Source: Bordetella sp. FB-8 (GTDB lineage: Bacteria > Pseudomonadota > Gammaproteobacteria > Burkholderiales > Burkholderiaceae_B). Taken from it: a stretch of 64,000 bases of DNA. This document shows positions 3,017 through 46,572 of this stretch, one piece after another. The stretch lies in NCBI RefSeq assembly GCF_000382185.1, contig NZ_KB907784.1, forward strand, positions 62,001 to 126,000. Direction: 5' to 3'. The notes beneath the pieces were generated by a model that saw nothing but the letters and a program-made list of their open reading frames with translations, was not told where the DNA came from and did not search any database. Every line of letters starts with the position of its first letter. The first letter of the stretch is position 1. Both the position numbers and the translations under genes were made by a program.

Positions 3017-3711
3017 GTGCCATCGCCTCTTTGGAATTCGACGACATCATCGCCGGCTATCGCGACACGACCGTGTTGCGCGGCATCAGCGGACGTATCG
3101 GTCCGGGCCAAGTATTGGGCGTCGTCGGCCGCAACGGCGTGGGCAAGACTACGCTCATGCACACATTGGCTGGCTTTATCACCCCATTCTCCGGCCGCAT
3201 CGCCTTCTCGGGCGAGCCTCTCGATGGCCTCACGCCACACCAGCGCCATGCGCGCGGCATCAGCTACGCCCCCCAGGATCGCGTCGTCTTCGATGACTTG
3301 TCGGTCGCCGACAATCTGACGATAGGCTGGCCCACGCGCAACCTCGCCCGCTATCGCCATACCTTCGAACGGTTTCCCCGCATTGCCCAACGCCTGCGTC
3401 AGAAGGCGGGACGCCTGAGCGGCGGCGAGAAGAAGCTGTTGTCCTTCGTGCGTGCAATCGGCGAAAACGCGCTTCTTACGCTGATGGACGAACCGACCGA
3501 AGGCGTCGCTCAGGAAAATATCGCCCTGACCGCGCGGACCATCACTGAACGCAAGGCGCAAGGCGCAGCATTCGTGATCGTCGAGCAAAATCTGGACTTT
3601 CTATTGTCATTGGCCGACATCTTGCTGGTACTCGACCACGGTTCGATCGTTGCGAGCGGGCCGACCGCCGAATTCGACCGCCCACGCGTCGAACAATATC
3701 TGGTGGTTTGA
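3013..3711 (+). CDS. ABC transporter ATPase, LivF/UrtE type
   Basis: A 232-residue ATPase, the second nucleotide-binding subunit of the importer. Walker A is GRNGVGKTT, the signature is LSGGEKK and Walker B is LTLMDEPTEGV, with the UrtE/LivF ending in which EQNLDFLLSLAD carries the switch region. It starts in an ATGA overlap with the fused permease-ATPase. It is the last gene of the operon; no strong terminator is visible after it. Confidence 0.87.
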   Translation: MSAIASLEFDDIIAGYRDTTVLRGISGRIGPGQVLGVVGRNGVGKTTLMHTLAGFITPFSGRIAFSGEPLDGLTPHQRHARGISYAPQDRVVFDDLSVADNLTIGWPTRNLARYRHTFERFPRIAQRLRQKAGRLSGGEKKLLSFVRAIGENALLTLMDEPTEGVAQENIALTARTITERKAQGAAFVIVEQNLDFLLSLADILLVLDHGSIVASGPTAEFDRPRVEQYLVV

Positions 3712-3721
3712 GACACGACGC

Positions 3722-3847
3722 TCAGGCCGCAGTTACCCGTCTCATTTGAAAAAAGCGAGCCGTAGTAGCCAAGCCCAGGGTCGTCAAGGCCAAGGAGCAC
3801 AGCAGGGCAGTCACACCGCAAGATACCCCCCGGATGGCGGTGTTCAT
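3722..3847 (-). CDS. Possible small membrane protein (41 aa), uncertain
   Basis: A 41-residue reading frame beginning MNTAIRGVSCG with one hydrophobic stretch (VTALLCSLALTTLGLATTA) followed by a basic tail (RFFQMRRV). An AGGAAG sequence lies about 9 nt before the ATG, a reasonable ribosome-binding site. It lies downstream of clpB on the same strand. I do not recognise a family. It may be a real small membrane protein, the remnant of a longer gene, or chance. Confidence 0.25.
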   Translation of the reverse strand: MNTAIRGVSCGVTALLCSLALTTLGLATTARFFQMRRVTAA

Positions 3848-3941
3848 CGGGCTGATCTTCCTGCGGCCATTCGCGGAAACGGCAGGAACAGCGCCCTGTC
3901 GCCCCTGCCGCCGTCCGGTGCTGCGGGTCCGGCTGCCGCCT

Positions 3942-6545
<2,604 letters not shown>

Positions 6546-43261: not shown

Positions 43262-43504
43262 CTATTTCTGCATGGTGCCCTTGTCCATGGAGCTGCTCTG
43301 CATGCCCTTGTGCATGGCGCCGCTCTTTTGCATCATGCCGTCGTTCTTGCCTGCCTTGCGCATGGCCTTGTGCAGCATGGCATCGCTCTTGGCATACATG
43401 CCGGATTTCTTCATGTCGTCCTGGCCCATGCCCGCCGCATGGGCGCTGGCCAGACCCAGCAGCATCACACACGCAACCGCGCCGGAAATCGAAATTTTCT
43501 TCAT
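43262..43504 (-). CDS. Exported Met/Lys pentapeptide-repeat small protein (MXKDX-like)
   Basis: An 80-residue protein with a signal peptide (MKKISISGAVACVMLLGLAS, then AHA) followed by about 57 residues rich in Met, Lys, Gly and Asp in loose five-residue repeats (DDMKKSGMYAKSDAMLHKAM; GMMQKSGAMHKGM). This fits the pentapeptide MXKDX family. Its many methionines could be oxidation targets or metal ligands. A GTAACC-N16-CGAA element precedes it, facing the sigma gene's own copy, so it is likely under the neighbouring ECF sigma factor. Confidence 0.72.
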   Translation of the reverse strand: MKKISISGAVACVMLLGLASAHAAGMGQDDMKKSGMYAKSDAMLHKAMRKAGKNDGMMQKSGAMHKGMQSSSMDKGTMQK

Positions 43505-43559
43505 GGCTTGACTCCTATCGGGGTAAGGGCCGCGGGAAATCGCGGCCGGTACAATCCAG

Positions 43560-43585
43560 TTCGACGCACAGCCCACTCCGGTTAC
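43560..43585 (-). promoter_or_regulatory. ECF promoter (GTAACC-N16-CGAA) of the Met/Lys-repeat gene
   Basis: On the minus strand, GTAACC at 43585-43580, a spacer of exactly 16 bp and CGAA at 43563-43560. It lies 56 bp upstream of the start codon of the repeat-peptide gene and faces away from the sigma gene. Confidence 0.75.
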
Positions 43586-43613
43586 AGCCCGGGCTGAAAA
43601 AGTACGCAGCCCG

Positions 43614-43639
43614 GTAACCCGAAACGCCGGTACAACGAA
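43614..43639 (+). promoter_or_regulatory. ECF promoter (GTAACC-N16-CGAA) of the sigma gene
   Basis: GTAACC at 43614-43619, a 16-bp spacer, CGAA at 43636-43639; 21 bp upstream of the sigma factor start codon. The same bipartite motif, same spacing, occurs before the repeat-peptide gene and msrP. Confidence 0.75.
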
Positions 43640-43660
43640 TAAACAAGAAAACACATATCG

Positions 43661-44233
43661 ATGCCGCAGCGAGATAGCAACCAGGCGCAGTCGGACATAG
43701 AGGAAAGACTAAAAAGTCTTTTCTCTCGCGGCCTTGCGGGCGACGACAGGGCCTACCACGCCTTTCTGTCGGAACTCGGCAAGCGGCTGCGCGCCTATCT
43801 GCGCAACCGCTTGCGCGGCCTGCCGGACGAAGTGGAAGACCTCGTGCAGGAAGCCCTCATCGCAGTCCACAACCAGCGCCATACCTATGACATGGCGCTG
43901 CCCCTGACTGCCTGGGTGTACGCCATCGCGAAGTTCAAGCTCGTCGATCTGCTGCGCCGGCGATCGCGCCAAGAGTTGCTGACCGACCCGCTGGACGATG
44001 CGCAGGACATCCTCTGCAACTCGGACTCCGAGGCCATGCAGGCGCGGCGGGACGTGGCCAAGCTGCTGGACCTGCTGCCCGACCGGCAGCGCCTGCCTAT
44101 CGTGTACGTCAAGCTGGAGGGTTGGTCCGTAGCAGAAACAGCCGGCATGACGGGCATGTCCGAGGCGGCAGTCAAGGTAGGCGTGCATCGAGGCCTGAAG
44201 GCCTTGGCTGCAAGAATCAGGAATCAATCATGA
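43661..44233 (+). CDS. ECF sigma factor (SigF/NrsF-associated type)
   Basis: A 190-residue ECF sigma factor. Region 2 shows [40 protein letters not shown] and [20 protein letters not shown]; region 4 shows [20 protein letters not shown] and [20 protein letters not shown]. It overlaps the anti-sigma gene by ATGA. Pairing with an NrsF (DUF1109) membrane protein puts it in the SigF-type group, which in Caulobacter responds to heavy metals and oxidants. A GTAACC-N16-CGAA element just upstream suggests autoregulation. Confidence 0.88.
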
Positions 44234-44871
44234 AGACCGACGATCTTATCGCCATGCTTGCCCGCGATGCCGGCGCGGTACAACCCGATCGCGGCGGCAG
44301 ACGTTTCGCGCTGGCCCTGGGCACGGGCATGCCGTGCTCGGCGCTGCTGATGCTGGCCACGCTTGGCCTGAACCCCGCCTTGGGCCGATATCTCGAATTG
44401 CCGAACTTCTGGATGAAGCTCTCGTTTGCCGCCGCCCTCGCCTGCATCGGCCTGGTCATCGTGCTGCGCCTGGCGCGCCCCGGCGTCAAGCTGGGCCGCG
44501 CACCCCTGGCCCTGGCCATTCCCATTCTGGCGATATGGGCAATCGCGGTGGCAACGTTGGTACCGGACGATGCCGCGCAACGCGCTGAAGCCTTCTTCGG
44601 CCAGACCTGGATCGTATGCCCCTTCCTCATTGCTATGCTGTCCATACCCGTGTTTGCCGGCACGACCTGGGCCATGCGCGGTTTGGCGCCCACCCGACTG
44701 CGGCTGGCCGGCGCGGCCGTAGGCCTGCTTTCCGGCGCCGCGGGCGCGGTTGTCTATTGCCTGCATTGCCCGGAACTGGCGGCGCCGTTCGTGGGGTTCT
44801 GGTATTTGCTCGGCGTGCTCATCCCCACGGGCATCGGCGCCTTGCTGGGCAGGTATTTATTTCAATGGTAG
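44230..44871 (+). CDS. nrsF: NrsF-type (DUF1109) membrane anti-sigma factor
   Basis: A 213-residue protein starting [19 protein letters not shown], the cytosolic N-terminal part, then six membrane segments ([95 protein letters not shown]). YCLHCPE and the paired Cys match DUF1109 proteins, whose conserved cysteines are proposed sensors. It should hold the ECF sigma factor at the membrane. Confidence 0.87.
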
Positions 44872-44899
44872 AAGCGCCGTAATTAATTTCGCCCGGACG

Positions 44900-44925
44900 G
44901 TAACCATTCTTTCCCGCCCAGCGAA
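44900..44925 (+). promoter_or_regulatory. ECF promoter (GTAACC-N16-CGAA) of msrPQ
   Basis: GTAACC at 44900-44905, a spacer of exactly 16 bp, CGAA at 44922-44925; 47 bp upstream of the msrP ATG. Third copy of the motif in this locus. Confidence 0.75.
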
Positions 44926-44972: not shown

Positions 44973-45941
44973 ATGCTCATACGCCAATCTTCAGATGTTC
45001 CTGCCTCCGAGATAACGCCCGAATCGGTGTGGCAATCGCGGCGTAGGTGGCTCAAGCAAACCGCCCTGGGCGGCGCCGCGCTGGGACTGGCACGCATGCC
45101 CGACGCGCTGGCCGCCGACGCGCCGGACTTGGCGCCGCTGCCCGGCACACCCAACCCGAAGTACGTGGTGATGGACACGCAGACCTCATACAAGGACATC
45201 ACGCACTACAACAACTTCTACGAATTCGGTCTGGACAAGTCCGATCCGGCCGACTATGCAGGCAAGCTCATCACCCGGCCCTGGACGGTGAGCGTCGAAG
45301 GCGAGGTCGCCAAGCCGCGCACCTTCGGCATCGACGACCTGCTCAAGCTCGCCCCCATGGAAGATCGCGTCTACCGGCTGCGCTGCGTCGAGGCCTGGTC
45401 CATGGTGATTCCCTGGGTGGGTTACTCGCTGTCGGCGCTGCTCAAACAGGTCGAGCCGACCGGCAACGCCAAGTACGTCGAATTCGTCAGCGCGGTACAG
45501 AAGGAAACCATGCCGGGCGTGACTTCGGATGTGCTCGAATGGCCCTATATCGAGGGGCTGCGCATGGACGAAGCCATGCATCCGCTGTCGATGCTGGTGT
45601 TCGGCCTGTACGGCAAGATGCTGCCCAATCAGGACGGCGCGCCGCTGCGCGTGGCCGTGCCGTGGAAGTATGGCTTCAAGTCGGGCAAGTCGCTGGTGAA
45701 GATACGCCTGGTCGAAAAGCAGCCCGCGACGGCCTGGGTCAAGGCCGCGCCGAACGAATACGGCTTCTATGCCAACGTGAACCCCAACGTGCCGCATCCG
45801 CGCTGGAGCCAAGCCACCGAGCGCCGCATCGGCGACCCGGACGGCTTGTTCGCGCCCAAGCGCAAAACGCTGATGTTCAACGGCTACGGCGACCAGGTCG
45901 CGTCGATGTACGCGGGCATGGACTTGAAGGCCAATTTCTGA
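44973..45941 (+). CDS. msrP: Periplasmic methionine sulfoxide reductase, catalytic subunit MsrP
   Basis: A 322-residue molybdoenzyme with a Tat signal ([18 protein letters not shown]). The molybdopterin-ligand Cys is Cys138 in [17 protein letters not shown]. It repairs oxidised methionines in periplasmic proteins using electrons from MsrQ. The ATG at 44973 has an AGGTGAG site 4 to 5 nt upstream; a GTG nine bases earlier lies inside that site and is unlikely. An ECF-type promoter precedes the gene. Confidence 0.95.
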
Positions 45942-45942
45942 A

Positions 45943-46572
45943 ATGGTCGAGTTGACGCAAGCGCCTATCGTGCGCCGCAAGCTTGACGTGCGGGCCGTAG
46001 GCCGCATCAAGCCTTTCCTGTTCGTGGTCGGCCTGCTGCCCTTTTTGCGCTGGATATGGCTCGGCTTTCACGATGGTCTGACGGTCAACCCGGTCGAGTT
46101 TCTGACGCGATCCTCAGGCACCTGGACGCTGGTGTGCCTGCTGGTCACGCTGGGCATCACGCCCTTGCGCCGCCTGACCAATCAGCCGGCCCTGGTGCGC
46201 GTGCGCCGCATGTGCGGGCTTTTCACCTTCTTCTACGCCTGCATGCACTTTCTGACCTGGGCCTGGTGGGACCGCAACTGGAATCTGTCTTCGATGATCG
46301 AAGACATAGGCCAGAGGCCCTTCATTCTGGTCGGCTTCACCGCTTTCGTGCTGATGAGCCTTTTGGCAATCACCTCGCCGCAAGCGATGATGCGGGCGAT
46401 GGGACGCAACTGGCAGCGTCTGCATCGCGTAATCTATGTGATTGGCATGCTGGCGATCCTGCACTTCTGGTGGATGCGGGCCGGCAAGAACAACTTCCAG
46501 GAGCCGGCCATCTACGCCTGCGTGCTGATCTCGCTGCTGGGGTGGCGGATCGCGGAGCGCCTGCGGCGGTAG
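45943..46572 (+). CDS. msrQ: MsrQ haem b membrane subunit
   Basis: A 209-residue protein with six membrane helices of the ferric-reductase-like fold. The haem-ligand His are in FYACMHFLTWAWWDRNWN, NWQRLHRVIYVIGML and AILHFWWMRAGKN. It passes electrons from the quinone pool or flavin to MsrP. It starts 1 bp after the msrP stop, so the two are one operon. Confidence 0.95.
   Translation: MVELTQAPIVRRKLDVRAVGRIKPFLFVVGLLPFLRWIWLGFHDGLTVNPVEFLTRSSGTWTLVCLLVTLGITPLRRLTNQPALVRVRRMCGLFTFFYACMHFLTWAWWDRNWNLSSMIEDIGQRPFILVGFTAFVLMSLLAITSPQAMMRAMGRNWQRLHRVIYVIGMLAILHFWWMRAGKNNFQEPAIYACVLISLLGWRIAERLRR

Follow-up and report, generated by a model that had tools for sequence, protein, structure and literature searches.

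The closest described systems are those of Azospira, Brucella, Caulobacter, and Bradyrhizobium, and they are presented here as far as the covered parts of the cited papers describe them. In Azospira suillum, SigF/NrsF controls the hypochlorite-scavenging, methionine-rich peptide MrpX and the MsrP-type reductase YedY1 (Melnyk et al. 2015, doi 10.1128/mBio.00233-15, via PMC5748585, PMC4623255, and PMC8315932), and the system sits among the genes of perchlorate-reduction islands (via the same three papers). In Brucella, the peptide–reductase operon is inducible by hypochlorite, and a role of the peptide as a sink was proposed there (PMC8315932). The Caulobacter SigF system is induced by chromium and cadmium (PMC3511200). 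The ECF16 consensus is quoted as tGTAACc-N16-CGAA in PMC3420878, and an ECF16-type motif is quoted with N17 in PMC8315932. Sigma-factor and NrsF genes also occur in Buf1 clusters (PMC12452194).

Genes and promoter motifs of the locus

The locus described here lies in the window, i.e., the whole 64-kb stretch of DNA that was analyzed, and the gene identities in the first-pass annotation (ECF sigma factor, NrsF-family protein, MsrP, and MsrQ) were upheld by the Pfam and NCBIfam models. The sigF gene (43661..44233, + strand) encodes an ECF sigma factor of 190 amino acids, in which sigma regions 2 and 4 (PF04542 and PF08281) scored above the cut-off and which matched NF009188 with 295.3 bits (cut-off, 250). 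It overlaps, in the sequence ATGA, with nrsF (44230..44871, + strand), the 213-amino-acid product of which matched PF06532 with 221.5 bits (cut-off, 26.8) and contains both conserved anti-sigma cysteines, Cys130 and Cys180. Because its score against the NCBIfam equivalog NF042994 was below the cut-off (151.8 vs 300 bits), we call this anti-sigma factor an NrsF-family protein and not the equivalog. The same strand encodes MsrP, the catalytic subunit of a methionine sulfoxide reductase (44973..45941; NF003767, 475.9 bits; cut-off, 207), and MsrQ, its heme-binding membrane partner (45943..46572; NF003831, 171.5 bits; cut-off, 130). MsrP contains the twin-arginine-like signal SRRRWLK, with a TIGR01409 score of 16.0 bits (cut-off, 16.7). 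On the − strand, an mrpX-like gene (43262..43504) encodes a Met/Lys-rich protein of 80 amino acids, recognized from its open reading frame, its composition, and a comparison with a sister species. Judged from the sigma domains, the adjacent anti-sigma gene, the cysteines, and the promoters, the locus is very probably an ECF16-type SigF/NrsF envelope-stress locus.

An exact-match scan of both strands detected three copies of GTAACC-N16-CGAA in the whole window and none besides, in agreement with the positions and 16-base spacers reported in the first-pass annotation. These SigF-type promoters precede the mrpX-like gene (43585-43560, − strand), sigF-nrsF (43614-43639, + strand), and msrPQ (44900-44925, + strand), at distances of 55, 21, and 47 bases, respectively, from the start codons of the mrpX-like gene, sigF, and msrP. 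All three spacers are exactly 16 bases long, and the three motifs are packed within 1.4 kb. The motif is identical to that of Caulobacter SigF (PMC3511200), as the first-pass annotation had stated. In 100 shuffles of the window, the mean number of exact motifs was 0.01, and three copies were reached in none. A scan allowing one mismatch was uninformative (5 matches vs 1.96 expected). In the sister species (L151), whose SigF is 94% identical, the gene arrangement is kept, and each of the three promoters retains its two boxes and the N16 spacing; the spacer sequences have diverged. The head-to-head -35 boxes are 28 bases apart in the window and 44 in the sister species, owing to a 16-base length change.

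The genome scan for the motif that the first-pass annotation had proposed covered 4.08 Mb in two contigs (99% complete). It revealed an extra head-to-head pair at a second locus, but the total of seven exact motifs vs five copies of the reversed control pattern is weak evidence alone, and the bare motif is therefore near chance level genome-wide. It is the clustering of the motifs, not their bare genome-wide count, that is beyond chance. If the three motifs were coincidental and the genes ran from housekeeping promoters, a genome-wide number barely above that of the control would be expected; the clustering of all three in the window and their retention in the sister species argue against this explanation. 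The seven motifs comprise the three in the window, the pair at the second locus, and two strays, both of which were rejected as promoters. Downstream of the stray in L008 (2990, + strand), a transporter-like frame lies on the opposite strand (3217-4515, − strand), and the plus-strand frames listed there overlap this frame antisense; the stray in L010 (3045, − strand) lies inside a 216-amino-acid frame of the other strand.

Head-to-head promoter pairs in other genomes

Taking a single genome from each species, we searched for the head-to-head pair of motifs with no further criterion than a gap of 15–45 bases, and at least 120 stretches were obtained. The flanking genes were identified with tblastn, using the proteins of this genome, within 2.5 kb of the pair (less at stretch ends). 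Among the 120 matches listed, 113 were flanked on one or both sides by SigF/NrsF, BufA/B/C, or MsrP: SigF or NrsF was found at 108, bufferin genes at 85, and MsrP at 12. The other 7 of the 120 listed pairs were judged by eye from their first frames. Because of this co-location with SigF-system genes, we infer that the head-to-head pair marks SigF-type loci in many bacteria.

The distribution of the system was patchy: at an E-value threshold of 1e-20, 9 of 61 genomes, including this one, had a SigF match. Among the 14 other genus mates, four had SigF, which was only 39% identical in one of them (G519). Head-to-head pairs with gaps of 15–45 bases occurred in 5 of 121 family genomes, and pairs with gaps of 4–64 bases in 6 of 398 genomes phylum-wide (this genome included in both counts), the latter being too few for the question of phasing. 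The -35 gaps of 93 of the 125 loci with listed pairs were 23–24, 32–34, or 42–45 bases, in a search that covered gaps of 15–45 only. After near-identical loci had been combined (80 clusters, 103 values), this clustering was not matched in any of 2000 random draws from a uniform distribution, but with coarser merging of relatives, 602 of 2000 (29 clusters, 48 values) and 241 of 2000 (14 clusters, 38 values) did so. Helical phasing is not claimed because random draws often match under these coarser clusters, in which the signal is lost. The gap of 28 bases in the window is itself off the peaks.

Other genes beside the pairs were noted by eye. At L022 and L063, head-to-head SigF-type promoters lie between back-to-back genes resembling exported MsrA and MsrB, and at L118, a gene resembling that of a Met-rich peptide lies opposite a DUF1223 gene. 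Other frames lie beside the pair at L024, L026, L031, and L123. At the head-to-head pairs of L056, L066, L115, L128, and L129, the first frames opposite sigF/nrsF are thioredoxin-like or DsbD-like.

A/T tract upstream of the -35 box

An A5/T5 tract at 43597..43601 (no strand assigned) is located 13–17 bases upstream of the -35 box of sigF and 12–16 bases upstream of that of the mrpX-like gene, and an A/T tract was also read upstream of the msrP promoter (44880..44889, + strand). In a pooled profile of 132 pair loci (including the window, the second locus, and the sister species), A/T accounted for 58–77% at positions 11–19 upstream of GTAACC, with eight of the nine positions at least 64%. Elsewhere, it accounted for 19–38% at positions 2–9, 44–56% at positions 20–34, and 26–45% at positions 35–45, where the opposite promoter is already reached in many loci. 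An A/T run, defined as at least five A/T within 9–20 bases upstream of the motif, was present at 157 of the 240 promoters of the 120 listed pairs vs 15 of 360 control windows (12 bases each, 150–262 downstream), which are imperfect controls because they are mostly coding sequence. In this genome, the run occurs at all five placed promoters and at neither of the two stray motif copies (L008 and L010). This difference, and the location of 113 of the 120 listed head-to-head pairs beside SigF/NrsF, Buf, or MsrP genes, are further evidence that the three window motifs are not coincidental; we regard a coincidental origin as extremely improbable.

The SigF-type promoters remain the preferred reading. 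The tract resembles an UP element, to which the alpha subunit of the polymerase binds, and is a candidate for one. Genome-wide prediction of SigF promoters could become more precise if the A/T tract were considered as well, given that the motif by itself hardly exceeds chance level in a genome of 4 Mb.

Second locus and extent of the predicted regulon

The second head-to-head pair of exact motifs (C1:2990510-2990610) lies at a distance of 2.9 Mb on the contig and divides bufA-bufB-bufC-doxX-nrsF2 from a divergent DUF1223 gene (L009:4143-4841), which lies beside a SigF-type promoter. The bufferin (Buf1) cluster was recognized from PF10048 (DUF2282 precursor, 78.0 bits), PF05114 (MNIO enzyme, 354.1 bits), and PF09836 (DUF2063 partner, 77.8 bits), all above the cut-off. 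From these motifs, the regulon is predicted to consist of five promoters and transcription units at two loci. The three-promoter mini-regulon proposed in the first-pass annotation is therefore retained as an arrangement, which is kept in the sister species, but the predicted regulon is larger, the second locus adding two promoters. A DUF1223 gene was found within 2.5 kb of 5 among the 120 listed pairs (L071, on the opposite strand, L075, L083, L111, and L118). DUF1223 also occurs at L171, and its position beside SigF-type promoters or sigF-nrsF genes is thus recurrent.

Methionine-rich peptide

In the mrpX-like protein, a Sec-type signal peptide was predicted by reading of the sequence, and the part from residue 24 on consists of 57 amino acids, including 11 Met, 10 Lys, and 2 His, but no Cys. 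The label MXKDX pentapeptide repeat (TIGR02953) was rejected for this peptide (19.5 bits; cut-off, 41). In the comparison of the mature peptide with the sister species, a single species pair, 11 of 11 Met and 9 of 10 Lys were unchanged, as were 25 of 35 other residues. The dN and dS values from the same comparison were 0.089 and 0.227 for mrpX, 0.031 and 0.311 for sigF, and 0.031 and 0.318 for nrsF, and in this one species pair mrpX is overall under weaker constraint than sigF. Between the mrpX promoter and the start codon, we also read an inverted repeat, GGCCGCG-N6-CGCGGCC (43528..43547, − strand), whose arms are identical in the sister species and whose loop is altered; it could form a transcript-stabilizing hairpin.

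In its size, predicted export, Met content, and position beside sigF-nrsF and msrPQ, the peptide appears to work like those of the MrpX/BcrX type, and by analogy with these relatives, it may serve as a repairable oxidant sink. The first-pass annotation had regarded a Met reservoir repaired by MsrPQ as not generally described, but the covered sources attribute this model to Azospira MrpX/YedY1, and a sink was also proposed for Brucella BcrX/BcrPQ (PMC8315932). Alternatively, the peptide might chiefly bind metal (copper) beside the co-regulated bufferins, with MsrPQ keeping its Met residues as metal-binding thioethers. Such a role would suit a peptide whose putative sigma factor would also govern the bufferin operon, since bufferins chelate copper (PMC12452194), and whose 11 mature Met positions are all common to the sister species. 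It accords less well with the absence of Cys and the presence of only two His, and with the 10 Lys among the 57 mature residues, which would be more in keeping with a soluble sink for oxidants than with a site for cations; moreover, the published counterparts are described as oxidant scavengers (Brucella, PMC8315932; Azospira, via PMC5748585 and PMC4623255). Metal binding as the chief role is considered improbable, and the oxidant sink is the reading that we retain.

A second NrsF

The last gene of the bufferin operon behind the SigF-type promoter, nrsF2 (C1:2987250-2987888, corresponding to L009:751-1389, − strand), encodes a second NrsF, which matched PF06532 with 209.5 bits (cut-off, 26.8). 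The genome contains two NrsF genes (PF06532) vs one close SigF, the next ECF matches having E values of 1.6e-7 or weaker. NrsF2 has Thr at the position of the first conserved cysteine (Cys130 of the window NrsF), which corresponds to Cys129 of OsrA (PMC3420878) and Cys131 of Caulobacter NrsF (PMC3511200), and retains the second cysteine.

Of the 97 NrsF rows collected from the surroundings of the available loci, in which the NrsF of the window appears twice, 93 had both cysteines. The four rows lacking the first cysteine were the NrsF2 of this genome and one NrsF2-like protein from each of three genus mates; in those of L152 and L153, the second cysteine is missing as well. An NrsF2 homolog labeled Bordetella sp. 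is a single residue away from the protein of the genus mate G526, so the genus is probably Bordetella. In the NrsF of L064, the second cysteine was missing in the first alignment and present in a later one. An order-wide search gave 27 NrsF reads, all with both cysteines (some loci twice, and one the window's own). Among the best 120 of 381 NrsF2 homologs (query included), none had the first cysteine, which was replaced by Thr in 101 and Ala in 19, and 112 kept the second; because these sequences were chosen by their similarity to NrsF2, the 120 of 120 shows constancy within the NrsF2 subfamily, not frequency. Within the family of G442, 15 of 249 genomes had an NrsF2 match at E up to 1e-60, and in the wider stretches obtained for 10 of these 15, the protein lacked the first cysteine in eight and had it in two (L217 and L218).

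We read 15 loci, namely, those 10, this genome, two genus mates, and two plasmids. In 12 of them, bufABC and nrsF2 are co-directional behind an exact promoter motif, with nrsF2 last, and doxX is present in 9 of the 12. The exceptions are L217 and L218, which have other orientations, and L219, in which the gene is divergent from sigF and has its own motif. A canonical NrsF with SigF was also present in the stretch at 8 of the 12 loci, including an annotated Paraburkholderia plasmid (L209), and was not found in the stretch read at the other four, this genome's included. The MKT.DL start and LAPTRL block of the N-terminal consensus are common to both NrsF groups, and 16 of the 30 consensus residues at positions 1–30 agree between them. 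In the NrsF tree, the 121 distinct sequences without the first cysteine split exactly from the rest, with a local support of 0.31, because of which a single origin of the NrsF2 subfamily is not claimed.

In the covered parts of the published work, mutation of the two cysteines had different effects. OsrA C129S showed background-level two-hybrid activity and no repression, and OsrA C179S still repressed but had lost the peroxide response (PMC3420878). Taken literally, the C129S result means that NrsF2 should bind SigF poorly. In Caulobacter, NrsF mutants in either single cysteine still allowed further stress induction (PMC3511200), so the loss of the first cysteine need not abolish function.

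One SigF may face two anti-sigma factors, with NrsF as a stress-sensing latch and NrsF2 as a second brake that SigF induces and whose redox release differs or is absent; shut-off would then be encoded in the output operon itself, and the Met sink and copper-chelating bufferins would be joined in one two-input circuit. This is a tentative proposal, which we think rather unlikely to hold as a whole. Alternatively, NrsF2 does not act on SigF but, having evolved from an anti-sigma factor, is a membrane partner in the making of bufferins or senses metal. The lack of a residue matching Cys129 of OsrA, whose C129S form is inactive (PMC3420878), and the position of nrsF2 as the last bufferin-operon gene in 12 of the 15 loci read point in this direction, and we regard it as a serious possibility, if short of probable. 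The PF06532 match of 209.5 bits and the MKT.DL start and LAPTRL block shared by both groups speak against it, as does the stress inducibility of the Caulobacter single-cysteine mutants (PMC3511200); furthermore, Thr or Ala occurs throughout the listed subfamily (the best 120 of 381), so that compensation is possible. We give similar weight to the induced second brake and to the bufferin-associated membrane protein not acting on SigF. Among the matches listed in a literature search, which were judged by titles and abstract starts and largely came from outside the subscription journals, no paper described a cysteine-less NrsF or a single sigma factor paired with two NrsF proteins. The NrsF2 subfamily poses a testable question: is the response shut down by an anti-sigma factor encoded in the operon that it induces?

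Proposed mechanism

The observed genes, conserved promoter motifs, second locus, and two NrsF types can be combined into a circuit in which the regulation, the sensing, and the role of the peptide are modeled on relatives in Caulobacter, Brucella, Azospira, and Bradyrhizobium. NrsF, a predicted membrane anti-sigma factor with two conserved cysteines, would hold SigF until an oxidant or a thiol-reactive metal acts on NrsF and SigF is freed. Free SigF would then transcribe its own operon (a probable autoregulation), the divergent mrpX-like gene, and msrPQ, as well as bufABC-doxX-nrsF2 and the DUF1223 gene at the second locus. The exported Met-rich peptide would take up oxidation that would otherwise strike other envelope proteins, and the oxidized peptide would be re-reduced by MsrPQ with respiratory electrons. 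We consider this SigF/NrsF circuit as a whole, with its two-locus regulon, Met-rich sink, and MsrPQ repair, to be very probable.

Comparison with known systems

The likenesses and differences given here refer to the covered parts of the cited papers. The Azospira system resembles this locus in that SigF/NrsF occurs beside genes for a Met-rich peptide and an MsrP-type reductase; one difference is the second locus detected in this genome, which carries genes for bufferin, DUF1223, and NrsF2. In Brucella melitensis (BcrS/AbcS), head-to-head ECF16 promoters likewise lie between the Met-rich peptide and sigma genes, and MsrPQ is in the regulon (PMC8315932). However, bcrX-Q-P form one operon there, whereas msrPQ here follows nrsF and has its own promoter, and the gap between the -35 boxes is 38 bases in Brucella (from the coordinates in PMC8315932) vs 28 bases here. 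Caulobacter shares the identical promoter motif, an NrsF with two conserved cysteines, and a SigF regulon with YedY/MsrP and DUF2282-DUF692-DUF2063-DoxX genes, but the eight regulon genes named in the covered part of PMC3511200 do not include one for a Met-rich peptide. Bradyrhizobium EcfF/OsrA also combines an ECF16 sigma factor with a DUF1109 anti-sigma factor and has methionine sulfoxide reductases in its regulon, but its motif is the variant GTAAC(g,a)-N14-15-(c,t)CG(t,a), and no Met-rich peptide gene appears in the covered parts of PMC3420878.

The sink-plus-repair design is thus already published in other bacteria; the present analysis contributes a further member, its second locus, the A/T tract, and the NrsF2 subfamily. 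For this published design of hypochlorite defense, promoter evidence at the sequence level now comes from a further betaproteobacterial lineage, in which one genome also links the design to bufferins. Among the additions to the known systems, the NrsF2 subfamily is the one most worth a bench test.
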